In this document: in pieces, positions 2,391 through 16,426 of the stretch
Numbering within the stretch: the stretch's first letter is position 1
Layout of the letters: each line of letters starts with the position of its first letter
The notes under the pieces: generated by a model
Databases searched by the model: none
What the model was told of the DNA's origin: nothing
What the model saw: the letters and a program-made list of their open reading frames with translations, nothing else
Source: a virus
Virus record (IMG/VR): IMGVR_UViG_3300031951_001392
Coordinates: 1 to 21,486 of that record
Length of the DNA stretch: 21,486 nt
Direction: 5' to 3' (one strand)
Position numbers and translations under genes: made by a program

Positions 2391-4729
2391 TAACAGAAAA
2401 AATAGGTGGATTCAAGGACGGATTCAAGATCGAGATCACCAATGATTGGTGGCTCTGTCTCGGCGTCAATTGCTTCAGCAAAATCCAGAAGTGGATTGCT
2501 GATGGTAAAGATTTCGCAGTAGGTTTCCCTGACTACGCGGTTCAATGTGCCCATGTCAGTTGCTCGACAAAGCACTGAATCGTGGATCACCGTGAACGGT
2601 GCGTTGAACTTCAGGAATGCTTGATGAAGGATCGAAGCATCCAAAGAGTGGATAAGGTTGGGAGCTGTGCTGGATTTATGACCAGCAACATCTGGGCCTT
2701 CGTGACCTGTAGTTAGGTTGACTTCACAACGACCAAGGATCTGTAACTTGATTGTTGTTACCTTACGTTTGCGTCGGTTTTGTCTGACAATAAACCCAGA
2801 TGGTGTTTCCCAAGTAAGGTGATCTACGCCGCGCTTAAACGCTGCGCCAACTTCTTGTTTGATCCAATCCATGACACGCATTGGACCTGGGACAACCTCA
2901 TACATCGCTTCTCTGACTGCATTCACAATCAGAGTGAGTTCTTCAGGTGTAAACTCAGCACCCTTTTCTTTCAAGGCTTCACGGATGTAAGCCCTGTTGG
3001 AATGTTTGGTTGCGTTGTATGGAATGGTCATCACTGTTCTCTTTGTGACCTTCCGATCAAGGAGAGCAGCTAGGTGATCTGGCAGTTTTGGTTTGGCAAC
3101 CTCAGCCACAACTTTGTACGCATCCTGTGGTGTATCTGACGGAAAGACATTGACCAACCTTGCAGTTGATTGATCTCTCGCCATACCAGCCAGGATCTGT
3201 AGTCCTGAGCACGTCGCATCAATAGCAACCGGCAGATTTGTCCAACTTCTTGTGCACTCAATGACACAAGCGTTGTACTCCTCACATGCAGCGAGGAACT
3301 GCCACGGCTCATCTGCAGCCTCCCATTCGACTATCTCCACTAGTGGAGCGCTAGCCACACGAGAAATCAAGCGGTGGTTCTGAAGAACCCAGTCCTGACG
3401 TTCTTGCATCGTGGCTTTGTCCAACCCATTTCCGTAGCAGGTTGCTACTTGAAATGCCAGCCAGGCTTCTGCTTCATCCGTCATGAACGACGGTTCAGCA
3501 AACTTCAGCAGGGATTTACCGAAGTCAGTGTCTTGTGGGGTAAGGAAGGCCGGGATCGGATACGTACGACCTCGATAGTCAAATGACCACGGGAGATAGA
3601 ACTTGTCTTTCCCCTTGAAGATCTTGACGGTCTCCATCGTCATGCGTGTTCGGCATGACCGTTTGAATGACGCAGCGTTCTGGTTCAGGACCTCTGCTGC
3701 TTGCCGTCTGTACTCGTGCCTGGCCTCGTCGTTCTCAGCGATGTCGAACGGTTTGTTGGGGAGGGGTAGCTCAATGATCGGCAAGAACTTACCGACCTTG
3801 TACTGACGCTCCATCAAGGTCTCAGCCACGTCAACGATGAACTCATTGAGCGTGTAGGCAACCTTCTGGAGCTTGTTCAAAAACAGGAGTGGCGTGTTCC
3901 CCTGTACTAATCCGCCCTCACCGCGTCGCACCATCTCATGGCCATGCATTAACTCGTTGAGGAGGTAGCCACCAGCCTTGATGGGACTCCAATCTCGTGG
4001 TGGGACCAACATGGGCCACGCCATTGGAGCAAACATCAGAGCGTCTTGCATCAGCTCCTCCTTTTGCATGGCAAAGAGAAGACTCGGCACCAGCAAGGTG
4101 TACCGCCTCTTATCTCTGACAACCATGTGCTTGTCGAACCACCCAGTGGCCTTCAGCACACAGTCAAGAAGCCACCCACCAAGCTTTGCTTTTGTAGCAG
4201 TTGGCCAATTGTCCCAGTGATGCTCGTGGCGATTCATCATCGTGCGAGCCACCGTGGCCTTCTGCTGGGTGCCGCAGGCGCTGTGCCAGTACTGCCGCTT
4301 AATGCGGTCATACAGCTCAGGATCCTGTGACTCGTACCAGCGGAGCTGACACTCCTGCTCCAGGGCTTGGCCGATGGCAACGATCACATTGGCGATCTCG
4401 TTGGCCTTGTCCTTTGGGCTGAACACCTTGTCGAAGGTCAGCTTCAACGCAATGGCTGCTGCTGCCTCTGGTTCGATCTCAGCCAGGTATTGATGGATGG
4501 TGGCGAAGTCAACGCCGTTCTGCCCCTTGTGGATGCGTATCAGCGTGTCCTCTATGACCCGTGAGACCTCTCCAAGGGCTGCCTGGATACTGGCTACCCC
4601 ATAGACCGTTGCCGACCCGTAGGAGCGCTCCTCCAGCTTGCGTGTGTTGTCCAGAAAGCGTTCTCGCCCGTAGGCAATGGCCCGCTTTTCCAGCTCGATC
4701 TGTTGCTCCGTGAGAGCAGGTGAAACCAT
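2390..4729 (-). CDS. Single-subunit phage RNA polymerase, T7 gp1-like
   Basis: Transcribes the middle and late phage genes from phage promoters. 779 aa, shorter than T7 RNAP (883) but in line with cyanophage polymerases such as that of Syn5. Motif A: DATCSGLQI with catalytic D504. Motif B/O-helix: KRTVMTIPYNATK with K563 and Y571, spaced exactly as K631/Y639 in T7. Motif C: VIHDSVLC with catalytic D717. Also PWSFDYRGRTYP near 400. ATG at 4729; upstream lie a palindromic operator-like site (4775-4786) and a terminator (4796-4825), so it is probably the head of its own transcription unit. The 5' third is visibly more GC-rich (about 53-60% in sampled lines) than the 3' third (about 45-50%). Confidence 0.97.
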   Translation of the reverse strand: MVSPALTEQQIELEKRAIAYGRERFLDNTRKLEERSYGSATVYGVASIQAALGEVSRVIEDTLIRIHKGQNGVDFATIHQYLAEIEPEAAAAIALKLTFDKVFSPKDKANEIANVIVAIGQALEQECQLRWYESQDPELYDRIKRQYWHSACGTQQKATVARTMMNRHEHHWDNWPTATKAKLGGWLLDCVLKATGWFDKHMVVRDKRRYTLLVPSLLFAMQKEELMQDALMFAPMAWPMLVPPRDWSPIKAGGYLLNELMHGHEMVRRGEGGLVQGNTPLLFLNKLQKVAYTLNEFIVDVAETLMERQYKVGKFLPIIELPLPNKPFDIAENDEARHEYRRQAAEVLNQNAASFKRSCRTRMTMETVKIFKGKDKFYLPWSFDYRGRTYPIPAFLTPQDTDFGKSLLKFAEPSFMTDEAEAWLAFQVATCYGNGLDKATMQERQDWVLQNHRLISRVASAPLVEIVEWEAADEPWQFLAACEEYNACVIECTRSWTNLPVAIDATCSGLQILAGMARDQSTARLVNVFPSDTPQDAYKVVAEVAKPKLPDHLAALLDRKVTKRTVMTIPYNATKHSNRAYIREALKEKGAEFTPEELTLIVNAVREAMYEVVPGPMRVMDWIKQEVGAAFKRGVDHLTWETPSGFIVRQNRRKRKVTTIKLQILGRCEVNLTTGHEGPDVAGHKSSTAPNLIHSLDASILHQAFLKFNAPFTVIHDSVLCRATDMGTLNRVVRETYCEIFTISNPLLDFAEAIDAETEPPIIGDLDLESVLESTYFFC
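3335..3348. promoter_or_regulatory. Palindrome site A (CTCCACTAGTGGAG), inside RNA polymerase gene
   Basis: A perfect 14-bp palindrome and the longest member of the repeated TSCACWWGTGSA family. It lies inside the RNA polymerase frame, coding A-P-L-V-E, so it may be coincidental. It shares 12 bp exactly with site B upstream of the same gene. Confidence 0.4.
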
Positions 4730-5036: not shown

Positions 5037-6121
5037 TAGATCCGAGTCATTGCAGCTAGTTGTGGCATCTGAGCCAGCAATTGTTGCAAAGCATTAACCT
5101 GATTCAGGAGCTGGTCATAGGACGGCTGAGCGGGTTGAGCGGGTTCCGGTGCGGGCTGGGTAGCTCGCTGGAGCTGAGCGTTGAGGGCCTGGTGAGCTTG
5201 GTTGCGGGCCACATCCGAAACCTTGCAGTAACGAAGTGTGGTTTCGATCCGCTTGTGACCCATCAAGTCTTTGATGGTCATTGGCGGCACACCAGACTCA
5301 TTAAGAAATGTGGCGTAGCTGTGACGCAGTGAATGAATGACGTGTTTCTCGTCAATTCCTACATAGTTGCGAATCTTATTGAAGGAGCGTCGTAACGAAT
5401 CAGCAGAGCCGAAGTCATCGGCAAAGATGTGCTTCCTTGGGGGCTGATCACGTGTCCTTTCGATCATGAATGGAAGGATCCGATCTTGAATGGGGAGGAC
5501 ACGCCAGTTTTTGGCCTTAGTGACGAAACCGTCACGCCCACCTACGTGGATCCGCAGGTTAGGTATGTCGATGTCCATCACTCTGAGCTTTTGCAGCTCA
5601 CCAAGACGCATGCCAGTGAGTCCCAACGTCAGGAAGATTTCTCCCAACGCCGGGTAACCAAAAACATTGCATGAAGCCTCATACAATTGCTCCATTTGTG
5701 ACATCGTGAACCACGTCAGACGTGACTCCGAACCACTGAACATCTCCAACGCTTCAAACGGAACCTCGTCAATAAAACGATGCCGCTTGCAATGATTGAC
5801 GATTGTTCGGATGGTATCAATAACCTTGTTACAGGTTTCCTTTGATGTCCAGTTACGTTCATCTTCAAGCTCAAAGATAAGCTGGGTAACAGCAGCTTGA
5901 TCAAGCCTGGAGATTGGGTAACTAGCACCACGCATTTCAATCACATGATTGACTTGAATAGTGCGAAACATCGAAGGCTTTGAGATACCACTCGGTCTCT
6001 CGTCTTTGGGGAGTTGTTGAATGCGTTTCCACTCATCAACAGCCTTGCGTTCACGTACCCATGAGTCACGAGTCTTGAACGTGTACTCTGCACACTCACC
6101 AAATGTGCGACTATGTGCCAT
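5036..6121 (-). CDS. int: Tyrosine recombinase (phage integrase)
   Basis: Site-specific recombinase for insertion at the host tRNA-Leu. 361 aa from the ATG at 6121 (MAHSRTFGECAEY), chosen because AGAGGA lies 7 nt upstream; a longer form from 6160 has no such site. Catalytic set: R172 (TGMRLGEL), H263 and R266 (HSLRHSYA), H289 (LMGHK) and nucleophile Y298 (TTLRYCK). The N-terminal part (about 1-130) holds the SAM-like core-binding domain. After Y298 there is a tail of about 60 aa with a Pro/Ala-rich linker (PAPEPAQPAQP) and a Leu/Gln-rich helix, longer than in many integrases. It overlaps the winged-helix gene by 11 nt, so the two are co-expressed. The candidate attP is 140 bp downstream. Confidence 0.95.
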   Translation of the reverse strand: MAHSRTFGECAEYTFKTRDSWVRERKAVDEWKRIQQLPKDERPSGISKPSMFRTIQVNHVIEMRGASYPISRLDQAAVTQLIFELEDERNWTSKETCNKVIDTIRTIVNHCKRHRFIDEVPFEALEMFSGSESRLTWFTMSQMEQLYEASCNVFGYPALGEIFLTLGLTGMRLGELQKLRVMDIDIPNLRIHVGGRDGFVTKAKNWRVLPIQDRILPFMIERTRDQPPRKHIFADDFGSADSLRRSFNKIRNYVGIDEKHVIHSLRHSYATFLNESGVPPMTIKDLMGHKRIETTLRYCKVSDVARNQAHQALNAQLQRATQPAPEPAQPAQPSYDQLLNQVNALQQLLAQMPQLAAMTRI

Positions 6122-9393: not shown

Positions 9394-9603
9394 GGATACT
9401 GTAACAAGTCTTCACACTACAGATAACTTTAGACCTAATCACACCATATGTAGCGTCTGACCCACGCAAAACCACTAGATACCACCAGAAGTAGTGCATA
9501 CATACCACTTTTGACCCCATTTACAGCTAGTTTGTAGAACTAACCGCACCTAAATAACCCCAGGAAGAAGGGGGATACGGGGGTCTGCGTCCAGGTACAC
9601 CGA

Positions 9604-9632
9604 TATATAAGGCTTAAGAAATTTTTGTTGAA
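9604..9632 (-). promoter_or_regulatory. Possible host-type sigma70 promoter for early genes
   Basis: On the minus strand TTCAAC (-35-like) and TATATA (-10-like) are separated by exactly 17 nt in a locally AT-rich stretch. It points toward the small early genes starting at 9300. Both hexamers differ from consensus, so this is a candidate only. Confidence 0.35.
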
Positions 9633-9713
9633 TATCTAAGACCCCTCTACAAGCCCCAGGAAGACGTATGAAATGCATTGAACATACGAAGACACTCAAT
9701 AACACTTACACAC

Positions 9714-9733
9714 GCCTTCTAGAGGCTTCTAGA
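9714..9733. repeat. Short dispersed repeat, copy 1
   Basis: GCCTTCTAGAGGCTTCTAGA matches 18 of 20 bases of the segment at 12791-12810. It lies just downstream of the 72-aa gene's stop. TCTAGA occurs twice with a 4-nt loop, so it can fold as a hairpin. Confidence 0.45.
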
Positions 9734-9762
9734 TAGCTGTAATGAAGCTCTAGTGAAGGTGG

Positions 9763-10022: not shown

Positions 10023-10688
10023 TTATTCTCTACCCCACATCGCCTCACATACATTAGGAACATACTGATGAAGAAGATCCTGAACCTGACCAGCAATGAT
10101 TGCATGTTCTCGTTGTGTTCCATGACCAGTCCTCAGATCACAATAATGCAACCAAGACCGAATAGACCCATTCATATACAGTCGAGTAGGGGTAGCCATT
10201 GGCAACACTTCTCTGGCACACTCTTTTGCTACCCCATCTTTCAGCATTCTCAGATACAAGTCATAACACTGGTTGTACAGCTTGATTGTCTCTTCAGTGT
10301 ACTGATATCTCAACCCTAGGCTTAGATCATCAGTGCTATTCTGTCGGTTCTTACTATCCTGTTTACGGAACTGTGGAGGGGCTGCTACTTCTGTTACCTC
10401 AGCATACCGTTGACTAAACTCTTGGAAACTGAAGCTTCGATGCCTAAGGATCTGAGCTGCTATGGACCTAGTCGTATTGATTTCTACACACATATTGACC
10501 ATCTCAAAGGGAGACCAATGTTGATGATCAATGAGGTATTTAATTAGCTTAGCACTGGTCTCAGTGTTTGATTGATTGGAAGGGTTGGACACCCTAGCCA
10601 TGTAACTGATGAGGTTCTCTGCTTCTGGTGTGATGTGGATGAGTGAGACGGAATGAGATGTAGTGGAACGTTGAGTAGCAGTATGCAT
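10023..10688 (-). CDS. thyX: Flavin-dependent thymidylate synthase ThyX
   Basis: Makes dTMP from dUMP using methylenetetrahydrofolate, FAD and NADPH, supplying thymine for phage DNA. 221 aa. The ThyX signature RHRX7S is intact: RHRSFSFQEFS at 82-92, preceded by NTTRSIAAQIL. HWSPFE (58-63) corresponds to the family's HxSxFE block, and the C-terminal NGSIRSWLHYCDLRTGHGTQ segment holds the expected Arg for dUMP binding. ThyX is common in cyanobacteria and their phages. Here it lies after the large terminase, at the end of the late block, and not with replication genes. The first 14 residues are poorly conserved-looking, and the start has no clear ribosome site, so a slightly later start is possible. 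Confidence 0.95.
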   Translation of the reverse strand: MHTATQRSTTSHSVSLIHITPEAENLISYMARVSNPSNQSNTETSAKLIKYLIDHQHWSPFEMVNMCVEINTTRSIAAQILRHRSFSFQEFSQRYAEVTEVAAPPQFRKQDSKNRQNSTDDLSLGLRYQYTEETIKLYNQCYDLYLRMLKDGVAKECAREVLPMATPTRLYMNGSIRSWLHYCDLRTGHGTQREHAIIAGQVQDLLHQYVPNVCEAMWGRE

Positions 10689-11020
10689 TAATAGTTGTTG
10701 TTCATTGTATAGGTAGTAGAATCAATATCATTCAGATGGTCATTAAGAGACCATTCAGATGATATGGATTCAATCTCCCTTTAGTTTCAGTTTCAGTAGT
10801 TAATGAGAGATGTCCATTCACCCGCTCACTTCGTTCGCTGAGGACATCAACTAATTGTGTCTTTAGTTGTTTTTGTGTCATTAGGAAAATGGATGTCCAT
10901 CCCCAGGGACATCAAAGGGAGGGGAGTTGGGGATCACGTCTACGTGAGACACTACTCCCCCCCTTTCCCCCTTTTAATCCGCCCTCAGCCAGATCGACTG
11001 CTACGACTGGTGTCTTATTT
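10689..11020. other. Structured non-coding region after large terminase
   Basis: 332 nt without a supportable gene but dense in inverted repeats. (1) 10719-10771: arms GAATC/GATTC, ATATCAT/ATGATAT and ATGGTC/GACCAT, symmetrical TCAG internal loops, 7-nt loop. (2) GATGTCC at 10809-10815 with GGACATC at 10842-10848. (3) CAACTAA/TTAGTTG at 10848-10854 and 10863-10869, followed on the plus strand by TTTTT. (4) GATGTCC at 10892-10898 with GGACATC at 10907-10913, the same stem as (2). (5) 10914-10966: AAAGGGAGGGGAGT with ACTCCCCCCCTTT (one bulge), enclosing TCACG/CGTGA. On the minus strand hairpin 4 is followed by CATTTTCC and may end the terminase transcript. Position at the T7-style genome end suggests a packaging or terminal-repeat processing site, or a structured RNA. 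Confidence 0.65.
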
Positions 11021-12760
11021 TTAGACCCAGGTGGGAATGGACCCCCGTCTACCGCCCCCACGAGCGGCTCTCCGTTGTCCAAGATCAAACCCCATGACAA
11101 GGTGATCTGTGGCGCTCTGAGGGTCATCTAGAAAGGTTTCCAGGAGATCCTGCCAGTCTTCTTGTCTACGGGCTTTAACGGCCTCGTAGGCGCTGATGGA
11201 CATGGCATCAGTGAAGTACTTCACCCCTTGAGCAAGGGAGTCCAGACGGTCATCGTGTTTGACGGCACCCTTCTCCCGGCACATGCGAGACATCTGGTAG
11301 AAGAGCATGTACAGAAGTCGTTCTTCTGGTGCTGCGTCTTTATTGGAGTTGTAGTCCCACTCAACCACCCCTCGATCCAGGATGAGTCTATGTTGGTTCA
11401 TGACAGGTTCTAGGGCATCGATAATCCTGTCTTCTTTACGGACATTTGCTCGTACTTCTTCTACGTCTATGGCTTGCTTTGTTTGTTGGAGATGTTTTTT
11501 GAACAGTTCTGCGACGATACCGTCACCGAAGTTGGTTTCGATGAGGAGTTTAGTAACATTGTACCGCTTACACCCACGAAGGATGTCAAGAAGTGTATTG
11601 TCGCTATAACCGTCGCGATACGCTCGTACTTCGTGAACGTAGAGAAAGCCATTTCGTTGACTGATATAGGTTGCTGCTGTTTCGTCACTACCACGACCTG
11701 AAGGGTCTACCGAGCAGATCGTTTCGGTGTAGTCACCCCAGTCCCCTTGGAGCTGCATCGGGGAGTAGAAGTAATCACCTGGGAGGCCAACCGTAGGCAA
11801 ATCTTTGAGGATATTACGAGGATCACTGCACCAAACAACAGCATCAGGTGCTTGGGTTGGGTTGACTGAAGTGACAATGAGATCACTGAATTTAAGTGGG
11901 AACTTCTCAGCATCACTCAAGGTGGTATCCAGCATAAACTGCAACATGAAGTTGCTGCGACCCATGGCTGCTTCCCGTTCCAGCAGGTCATCCGATTGGA
12001 AACGGTCTGGATCAGTGGGAGACCACTCCTCAGCACCCATCTCGATGTCTTCTACGATCTGTGGTGCCAGCAGGTTCTCGTATTGACTGAGCTTGTCTTT
12101 ACGGGGGTAACGTGCTGGCCACACAAAGGGTCGGTAGTTCCGTTCAGCCAGCTTGCGGTAGATGGTGAAGGTGGTTTGGGGTGTCCCTAGGTACATAATG
12201 CGGCTATCCTTCTTCGGTGTAAGGATGGATTCCGCTTCTGTACACAGCTGCAGGAGCTTCTCCCGCATCATCTCAGTCATCGAGTTACCAGGAACTTCGA
12301 TGTCATCCAGAATCATCAGGTCTGCACGGCTACCTGTTAGCTGACCCGTAATACCAACGGACTTAACGGATGGTGCTTGGTGAGGAGAGCAGTTGACATC
12401 AAAGCTGATTCGTGACCACCGGGCGTCATCTGACTTCGGTCTTAGATGGCTGAGCCATGGTGTTTCGATGATCAGCTTTTGAAGGAAGATCGACATGTTA
12501 TCGGCACGCTCTTTAGAGGCGGAGATAATCATGATCTTCTTTTCTGGGTTGTTGAAGAGTGTCCAAAGGACGAAGGCACCTGTGATCCAGCTCTTACCGA
12601 CACCACGAAAGGCTTGGATCTGTAGACGCTTTGGTCCTAATTGCAGATAATCTGCGATGGCGTATTGTGCACGGGTTGGAGAGGGAAGATCGAGTTGCTG
12701 CCACAGGGCTTGCAGGAACAGCTTGAAATCGCCCCGTAAAGCCTCAAGGATATCGTTCAC
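11021..12760 (-). CDS. Large terminase subunit, T7 gp19-like
   Basis: ATP-driven packaging motor and nuclease. 579 aa, close to T7 gp19 (586). ATPase: Walker A FRGVGKS at 51-57, ISASKERAD at 79-87, Walker B LMILDDIEV at 148-156. Nuclease: SVDPSGRGSDETA (D352), LIETNFGDG (E408) and DDRLDSLAQ (D504/D507), the RNase H-like acidic set. The start is GTG at 12760 (MNDILEALRGDF); no ATG occurs before residue 89, and the N-terminus aligns well with gp19 from memory. An intrinsic terminator ends 17 nt upstream, so the gene needs its own promoter, possibly in the short AT-rich run before the GTG. The C-terminus is Gly/Arg-rich (RRAARGGGRRGS). Confidence 0.95.
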   Translation of the reverse strand: MNDILEALRGDFKLFLQALWQQLDLPSPTRAQYAIADYLQLGPKRLQIQAFRGVGKSWITGAFVLWTLFNNPEKKIMIISASKERADNMSIFLQKLIIETPWLSHLRPKSDDARWSRISFDVNCSPHQAPSVKSVGITGQLTGSRADLMILDDIEVPGNSMTEMMREKLLQLCTEAESILTPKKDSRIMYLGTPQTTFTIYRKLAERNYRPFVWPARYPRKDKLSQYENLLAPQIVEDIEMGAEEWSPTDPDRFQSDDLLEREAAMGRSNFMLQFMLDTTLSDAEKFPLKFSDLIVTSVNPTQAPDAVVWCSDPRNILKDLPTVGLPGDYFYSPMQLQGDWGDYTETICSVDPSGRGSDETAATYISQRNGFLYVHEVRAYRDGYSDNTLLDILRGCKRYNVTKLLIETNFGDGIVAELFKKHLQQTKQAIDVEEVRANVRKEDRIIDALEPVMNQHRLILDRGVVEWDYNSNKDAAPEERLLYMLFYQMSRMCREKGAVKHDDRLDSLAQGVKYFTDAMSISAYEAVKARRQEDWQDLLETFLDDPQSATDHLVMGFDLGQRRAARGGGRRGSIPTWV

Positions 12761-14217: not shown

Positions 14218-14547
14218 TTAATTAATCCAAGAGAGAATAAGCTGTTCTTTATTGGGGTTTTCACCGAAGGTGGCTCTCATCCATTGGAGCCAGTTTTGAC
14301 TTCCCTTTGCTTGATTACACGATCTACAACTGGGCACAAGATTGGATGTAAGGTCGGAACCTCCAAATGCTTTAGGTCGAACATGATCAAGAGTGAGTTC
14401 ATTAGCGTCATAAGTTTCTCCGCAGTAAACACATTGACAATTGAAGTGCTCTTTGATGGCTTTACGCCAGAGCCGTTTTGCTTCAGGGCTTGTCATGGTT
14501 ATTAGGTTTTGGAGATAGTGGTCAGGCGAGGGAAGTAGCGGAGTCAT
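14218..14547 (-). CDS. HNH endonuclease, zinc-type
   Basis: 109 aa from ATG 14547, or about 92 aa if the ATG at 14496 (MTSPEAKRLWRKA) is used. HNH core: CVYCGETYDAN (C39, C42), LTLDHVRPKAFGG (D54-H55), SNLVPSCRSCNQAKG (N69, C74, C77, N78). The two CxxC pairs bind structural zinc. Such genes in phages are either free-standing homing enzymes or help the terminase cut DNA; HNH proteins that assist packaging are known next to terminase genes in some tailed phages. It overlaps the upstream HNH stop (TAATG). Confidence 0.88.
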   Translation of the reverse strand: MTPLLPSPDHYLQNLITMTSPEAKRLWRKAIKEHFNCQCVYCGETYDANELTLDHVRPKAFGGSDLTSNLVPSCRSCNQAKGSQNWLQWMRATFGENPNKEQLILSWIN

Positions 14548-14792
14548 TACCGTTTAGCGTTCGTCTTACGTGCTCCCTTTGCACGGTTAGTTTTACGTGG
14601 AACAATCCGTAGATTGTCTCGGGAGTTATTCATTGGGTTGTTATCCTTGTGGTCTACTTCATGACCACTAGGGATATCACCCATGGAACGCCTTGCTCGT
14701 GCTCGTGCAGCATCTTCTTTGCGATGAGCACGCCGGTATGACTTTAGATATTCAGCACGGTCCTTATACTCTTTTTTCCAGTCTCGTGCCAT
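14547..14792 (-). CDS. HNH endonuclease, homing type (HNH_3-like)
   Basis: 81 aa. After a very basic N-terminal arm (RDWKKEYKDRAEYLKSYRR, then KEDAARARARR) comes the HNH motif GHEVDHKDNNPMNNSRDNL with E45, D47, H48 and N60, then IVPRKTNRAKG. No zinc cysteines, so this is a different class from the next gene. It overlaps the small terminase by 29 nt. Homing nucleases of this type often invade packaging and replication genes of phages. Confidence 0.87.
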   Translation of the reverse strand: MARDWKKEYKDRAEYLKSYRRAHRKEDAARARARRSMGDIPSGHEVDHKDNNPMNNSRDNLRIVPRKTNRAKGARKTNAKR

Positions 14793-15253: not shown

Positions 15254-16223
15254 GTTCCCGCAAGATACGTATTAGTTTGTCCGCATATGCGGGATCAGTG
15301 GCGTATTTTTCCGTTACAAGAAGACGAGCACACTCTTCTGGAGAGGATGCACGGTTGACACCTTTGTAGTTCTTGTAATCTCTGTACCACTTGTTGACGA
15401 GATCTTGGACGCATTCAAAGAGTGATGGATAGTCCTTGAACCAAGCGTCTGTTTTAATCTCCATACCACCGACAAATTCAGCGGTACGTTTCAGGGTGCC
15501 TTGGCCTTCAGTACCCTTGATGCCGAAGTAATTGTTCTTACCAGAGGTGTGTTTGCCGTAGCCGCTCTCCAAGGCCCACTGAGCAGCCACTACGGATGGA
15601 TGCTTGGAGCCTGCAGCAGTTGCAGCAGCTTTGACACCAGCCCAAGTGTTGTCGTAGCTGGTGACTGGTCGCGTCTGTTGTACGGGTCTAAAGGTCATAA
15701 ACCAACCAGTCCCTGGACCTTCAACTTCCCAACGCTTCAGCCAGTTACGCCAGGTGTATTTGACTTCTTTGCCACCGGAGCCAACTTTGACGTAGCCACC
15801 ATTGACGTTATCCATCTCACCGTATGGATCGTGGAAGATACCGTGTTCTCCATCATCACCAATGAGGAGCATCCAGTGGCCACCACCAACGGGTTTGGAG
15901 ACATGACCTTTGTGGAGGATGCCAACTGCTACTGGATAGCCTGCTTTTAGTTCGTTGAGTAGCGTCTGTCTGGTTCCCTTCTGGTAGAAGGAAGCGAACA
16001 CACCGTACTGCTGACAGGCTTTGATTTGACTGGTGGATTGGGTTGTATCACCATATTTGAGAACTGTTCTCAAGTAATCATCATCTGCATTACTACCTTT
16101 CAGCGCATCAGGACGGAGATACTTAATGGCCATAGCGCACGTTGAGCTAAAGCACATCCGATCTCCGTGACCTGTTGCACTATCTGTTTGGGGGTAGTAC
16201 TGCTTAACACTGAGCAGTACCAT
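15246..16223 (-). CDS. Two-domain endolysin: C39-like peptidase plus glucosaminidase
   Basis: 325 aa with two catalytic modules. N-terminal half (1-180): C39-like cysteine peptidase layout, DRMCFSSTCAM (C24 or C29), GGGHWMLLIGDD (H116) and FHDPYG (D132). C-terminal half (about 190-320): glucosaminidase/lysozyme-like domain with HPSVVAAQWALESGYGKH (putative catalytic E219) and NNYFGIKG. It would cut both peptide bridges and glycan chains of peptidoglycan. T7 uses a different enzyme (an amidase, gp3.5), so this is a separate lysis solution. Neighbours on both sides are small membrane proteins. Alternative: a virion-associated wall hydrolase. Confidence 0.85.
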   Translation of the reverse strand: MVLLSVKQYYPQTDSATGHGDRMCFSSTCAMAIKYLRPDALKGSNADDDYLRTVLKYGDTTQSTSQIKACQQYGVFASFYQKGTRQTLLNELKAGYPVAVGILHKGHVSKPVGGGHWMLLIGDDGEHGIFHDPYGEMDNVNGGYVKVGSGGKEVKYTWRNWLKRWEVEGPGTGWFMTFRPVQQTRPVTSYDNTWAGVKAAATAAGSKHPSVVAAQWALESGYGKHTSGKNNYFGIKGTEGQGTLKRTAEFVGGMEIKTDAWFKDYPSLFECVQDLVNKWYRDYKNYKGVNRASSPEECARLLVTEKYATDPAYADKLIRILREHD

Positions 16224-16228
16224 GATGT

Positions 16229-16426
16229 TTACTTGAGGGTATCCTTAATGCGTTGGATTTGGTCGTCTTCCTTACGCAGGGGCTTCAGAGCGTTGATGCC
16301 ACTAAGGATGAGTTGAACAACACCGTTGTCCTTCAGCTTGGATGCACCGATGATCTCGGAGCCAAGGAACAGTGCAAGAAAAGCAAGTGCCTCGTAGGAC
16401 ACTTTGATGCCAAGAATAGTGATCAT
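16229..16426 (-). CDS. Small membrane protein, holin candidate
   Basis: 65 aa. One clear hydrophobic segment (about 10-26: EALAFLALFLGSEIIGA), a second weaker one (VVQLILSGINAL), and a charged C-terminus (RKEDDQIQRIKDTLK). Small size, membrane segment, charged tail and a position directly before the endolysin fit a holin, but I cannot assign a holin family. The start follows the DUF7936-like stop by 2 nt (TAATCATG). Confidence 0.6.
   Translation of the reverse strand: MITILGIKVSYEALAFLALFLGSEIIGASKLKDNGVVQLILSGINALKPLRKEDDQIQRIKDTLK

Follow-up and report, generated by a model that had tools for sequence, protein, structure and literature searches.

The array of five hairpins between the large terminase gene (terL) and thyX of this virus probably forms the structured 5′ leader, including a terminator-like region, of a transcript that the phage's own RNA polymerase (RNAP) would make from a φOR-type promoter at positions 10989–10968 of the minus strand. 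The DNA analyzed here (the window) is a virus contig of 21,486 bases from a T7-like cyanopodovirus, in which every recognized gene lies on the minus strand. The upstream neighbor of the array is terL (11021..12760, minus strand; Pfam PF22530 Terminase-T7_RNaseH-like, E 2e-36) and its downstream neighbor is thyX (10023..10688, minus strand; Pfam Thy1, E 2e-47). Genes encoding an integrase (6160–5036) and the RNAP (4729–2390) are found on the same strand. The nearest isolate found, Synechococcus phage S-SRP01 (MW015080), has a gene order identical to that of the window, and its alignment to the 332-base intergenic region covers 248 bases at 74.5% identity. A tRNA search of the window returned no gene. 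Two small HNH endonuclease genes lie side by side at 14218–14792, between the lysozyme and terminase genes.

The array occupies positions 10966–10719 and is described here in the sense of the minus strand, on which all annotated neighbors also lie. HP1 (10914..10966), a long, G/C-rich and terminator-like hairpin followed by TTT, lies at the predicted transcript start. HP2 (10892..10913) has the stem GATGTCC/GGACATC and is followed by CATTTTCC, while HP2b (10848..10869), which is based on predicted folds, combines the stem CAACTAA/TTAGTTG with the loop AGACACAA. The stem of HP3 (10809..10848) is identical to that of HP2, so the arms of these two hairpins can swap partners. HP4 (10719..10771) is a 53-nt compound hairpin with internal loops that ends 30 nt before thyX. 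The sequence-only reading of this DNA had reported five hairpins after the large terminase gene, one of them a 53-nt compound hairpin with internal loops, a GATGTCC/GGACATC stem common to two of them, and no gene, and all of this proved accurate: none of the short open reading frames listed for the terL-thyX interval, which run into terL or the hairpins, is a convincing gene. In the 12 sequences scanned, ATGTCC/GGACAT hairpins occur only after terL.

By folding energy alone, the array is below shuffled sequence and moderately unusual, and it is not unique in the window. The plus strand of 10700–10980 has a z score of −4.3 relative to shuffled sequence, and the minus strand of the array scores −3.35 as RNA and −4.25 as DNA; several other stretches score lower in a sliding energy scan, for example 15987–16236 and 9487–9736. 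Segments of the integrase and lysozyme coding regions (5362–5986 and 15987–16236) are far more stable than shuffled sequence, with z scores of −5.7 and −6.4.

Covariation across relatives provides stronger evidence than energy and makes a strong case for the array. Across 11 relatives, both partners have changed in 12 of 43 consensus pairs, compared with 3.2 in shuffled alignments, none of 500 of which reached the observed value, and sliding the partners by one to three columns destroyed the pairing signal. Such a comparison with related phages was among the checks that the sequence-only reading had suggested. All seven pairs of HP2 are intact in all 11 clade members, two of them doubly changed, and HP2-type stems elsewhere (AATGAAC/GTTCATT, AATGATC/GATCATT, GATGTCA/TGACATC, and AATATCC/GGATATT) show that variation is compensated. 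Within the window clade, 6 of 10 pairs of HP3 are doubly changed, and the inner stem of HP4 is 100% paired with three doubly changed pairs; in relative L017 this inner stem consists of unrelated letters that are still complementary. HP1 retains the shape of a long hairpin in S-SRP01, L017, L331, and L059 with quite different letters. Rfam contains nothing that scores above its gathering thresholds in the window or five relatives, where only sub-threshold chance matches were obtained.

The array is preceded by a predicted phage RNAP promoter, GCTGAGGGCGGATTAAAAGGGG (10968..10989, minus strand), which lies about 30 nt after terL, ahead of the terminal-repeat marks described below, in a position comparable to that of φOR in T7. 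A second copy, GGTGAGGGCGGATTAGTACAGG (3901..3922, minus strand), is located inside the RNAP gene at codon 269, and the two are identical at 17 of 22 positions. Taken by itself this match is weak because another block of the window also reaches 17 in a block scan; what gives it weight is its position, which the window shares with all the other genomes. A phage-specific promoter pair was found in 12 of 12 genomes, with one copy at RNAP codon 269–274 and the other just after terL. The two copies within one genome agree at 16–21 of 22 positions; promoters from different genomes mostly agree at 10–16, with a few related phages at 17–18. In every phage examined, the terL-side copy lies within about sixty bases past terL, and in Syn5 it overlaps the end of this gene. 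The two sites of Syn5 are copies of its known promoter ATTGGGCACCCGTAA, which has been experimentally defined, with the +1 G directly after it (PMC3950665), and the terL-side RNA of this phage would open with a hairpin. In T7, φOR is found 99 nt past gene 19, and the repeat and the ATCTGTT motif come in the same order as in the cyanopodovirus isolates described below. Two features of a φOR-type unit are present in the window, namely a promoter sequence repeated in its own genome and its placement between terL and the terminal repeat. Given this promoter pair, the predicted φOR-type transcript would begin with the array itself.

Comparison beyond the window covered 202 distinct sequences located downstream of terL, drawn from four scans of contigs and from isolates. 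Of these, 168 (including L095, L082, and L096) contain AGGGTGGA, mostly in the form of the loop AAGGGTGGA, right where the RNA is predicted to start, and in 155 of the 168 the loop is unpaired in the predicted fold and closed by a stem. All eight stem pairs tested in 25 diverse copies have changed on both sides, with 44 doubly changed cells compared with 18 in shuffled data; a pairing table anchored on all stems is blurred by bulges. In the stems of the AAGGGTGGA hairpin, G-U and A-C combinations, scored alike, occur in a ratio of 132:44, for which composition predicts about 1.2:1. This excess favors an RNA of the terL strand, although no probability is attached to it because related sequences are not independent. 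A comparison of sense and antisense folding energies did not favor the sense strand.

A covariance model recovers this hairpin at E <0.01 in 9 of 11 isolate genomes, once in each and only after terL. The match in S-SRP01 is weak and lies at the same place after terL, and none was obtained in Syn5, where AAGTGGTG replaces the AAGGGTGGA loop. The hairpin is absent from Rfam and described nowhere in the open-licence literature searched; an earlier description elsewhere is possible. On these sequence comparisons, the AAGGGTGGA hairpin is a previously unlisted, predicted RNA hairpin conserved in most viruses of the group. The window itself shows no pattern match, and model R1 stays under 9 bits. 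Its lineage has lost the first hairpin and retained the remaining ones, so conclusions on the AAGGGTGGA hairpin apply to the relatives. The idea that the loop pairs with a complementary site elsewhere in the phage was rejected, as TCCACCCTT and its shorter forms are either absent or scattered without a common location. Another idea considered was that the G-run GGGGGAAAGGGGGGG at the RNA start could act as a primer or in an R-loop.

In the relatives, the first hairpin is followed by a terminator-like hairpin and then by an HP2-type hairpin. A terminator-like hairpin of −8 kcal/mol or below was found downstream in 63 of 90 sampled sequences compared with 9 of 90 shuffled ones, and the predicted short RNA has a median length of 60 nt. 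HP1 of the window has an energy of −25.6 kcal/mol and a T-run of only TTT, and a terminator scan selects HP2 instead, at chance rate. Purified Syn5 polymerase has been reported to ignore the T7 terminator. That a promoter stands before its own terminator in all these phages suggests that a short RNA, or transcription at this site, may matter. Tentatively, cyanopodoviruses could even make a dedicated noncoding RNA of ∼50–120 nt from the terL-side promoter, with a 5′-terminal hairpin that bears the invariant loop AAGGGUGGA and with a terminator hairpin. Such an RNA would act at the genome end, either in the initiation of replication or in packaging, and the window lineage would carry a rebuilt version of it; we regard this as possible, with the odds against it.

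We consider it unlikely that the array is simply an ordinary cluster of terminators at the end of an operon, in which HP1 stops late terL transcripts, the other hairpins stabilize RNA ends, and the promoter is functionally unlinked. The hairpin and T-run that directly follow terL in most relatives and the single transcription direction of all genes would agree with such a cluster, but a plain terminator needs neither a promoter ahead of it, as found in 12 of 12 genomes, nor a first hairpin whose loop is invariant. Much less probable is a cis-acting leader of thyX that controls translation or mRNA decay. HP4 does covary and ends 30 nt ahead of the thyX start; comparable hairpins, however, precede talC or small open reading frames in P-SSP7, P-SSP2, P-GSP1, and NATL1A-7 and other genes in L009 and L017.

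The sequence-only reading had offered two interpretations, a structured phage RNA and a pac or terminal-repeat element. The first is supported, as a prediction, by covarying pairs directly behind a predicted phage-polymerase promoter, whereas the second is not supported, given where the terminal-repeat marks lie. Isolate records that contain both ends show direct terminal repeats of 237 bp (Syn5), 206 bp (P-SSP7), 150 bp (S-TIP37), and 180 bp (S-SBP1), and those of P-SSP7 have been sequenced from particles (PMC3350473). In all four phages, the repeats sit downstream of thyX or talC. The sequence directly after the repeat is ATCTGTT in Syn5, ACCTGTT in P-SSP7, and ATCTGTC in S-TIP37 and S-SBP1, which gives the pattern A[TC]CTGT[TC]; the 160-bp repeat of T7 (V01146) is likewise directly followed by ATCTGTT. 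This heptamer is a class II pause and termination motif of T7 polymerase (PMC11617373), which pauses at the concatemer junction and meets the packaging proteins there (PMC3276506).

The repeats of P-SSP7, S-TIP37, and S-SBP1 open with a common mark, TATA..GG(A/C)CGCA..CCCC. In the window, a left mark (TATAT..GGACGCA..CCCCC) is found at 9609 and a right mark at 9424, both beyond thyX. They delimit a predicted direct terminal repeat of ∼185 bp (9425..9609, minus strand), the left edge of which is uncertain by a few bases, with ATCTGT, similar to the pause motif of the concatemer junction, at its predicted boundary (9419..9424, minus strand). The copy of A[TC]CTGT at the predicted repeat boundary is thus at 9424 and not within or beside the array. 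The contig contains the sequence 9609–9419 only once, which would be expected if a linear genome had been assembled across its ends, and no palindrome was found near the predicted repeat with the search settings chosen. The probable region of the packaging end is 9425..9609, more than 1.1 kb from the array and outside it. The array does lie toward terL from the genome end, and in T7 the genome ends some distance after gene 19. Even so, it is very improbable that the array serves as a packaging site or terminal-repeat element, given that the repeats of the four isolates and the corresponding marks of the window are found beyond thyX or talC.

For the preferred reading, a leader and terminator-like region behind a φOR-type promoter, we propose the following course of events. 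The single-subunit RNA polymerase of the phage would start just after terL, as the paired promoter copies and the example of Syn5 suggest. HP1 and its short T-run may stop many transcripts at roughly 60 nt and thereby yield a short structured RNA. Transcripts that pass HP1 would run via HP2–HP4 and thyX, cross the terminal repeat, and reach the ATCTGT site, with HP2–HP4 presumably shaping or protecting the 5′ end of this longer RNA. Several observations count against this proposal: the promoter copies of the window agree at only 17 of 22 positions and tie with another block, its T-run is restricted to TTT, purified Syn5 polymerase is reported to ignore the T7 terminator, the energy test does not favor the sense strand, the window lacks the AAGGGTGGA hairpin, and T7 has no comparable array.

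These results correct the reading of the locus by placing the genome end elsewhere, at a site predictable from sequence, and they provide predicted promoter sequences, each specific to its phage, for numerous cyanophages from marine and fresh water that have not been cultured. They also indicate that one defined, predicted transcript begins with a conserved RNA element that is so far unlisted. If the short RNA exists, the life cycle of T7-like phages would include an additional noncoding RNA.

Compared with known systems, the locus shares with S-SRP01 (MW015080) its gene order and the overall shape of HP1, the letters of which are unrelated. As in intrinsic (class I) terminators, a G/C-rich hairpin is followed by a T-run in most relatives; unlike in these, the T-run of the window is weak, and the array lies downstream of a promoter and not only of a gene. 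The right end of T7 (V01146) also contains a phage-polymerase promoter after the large terminase gene, a small gene, the repeat, and ATCTGTT at the boundary, but it has no comparable hairpin array between φOR and gene 19.5, and T7 uses many more promoters, with 15 cited (PMC3950665). In Syn5, the promoter letters differ, AAGTGGTG stands in place of the AAGGGTGGA loop, and no HP2 motif was detected. Syn5 shows the same arrangement of a promoter pair, with one copy inside the RNAP gene and the other past terL (PMC3950665), and its terL-side RNA would likewise start with a hairpin that is followed by a terminator-like hairpin.
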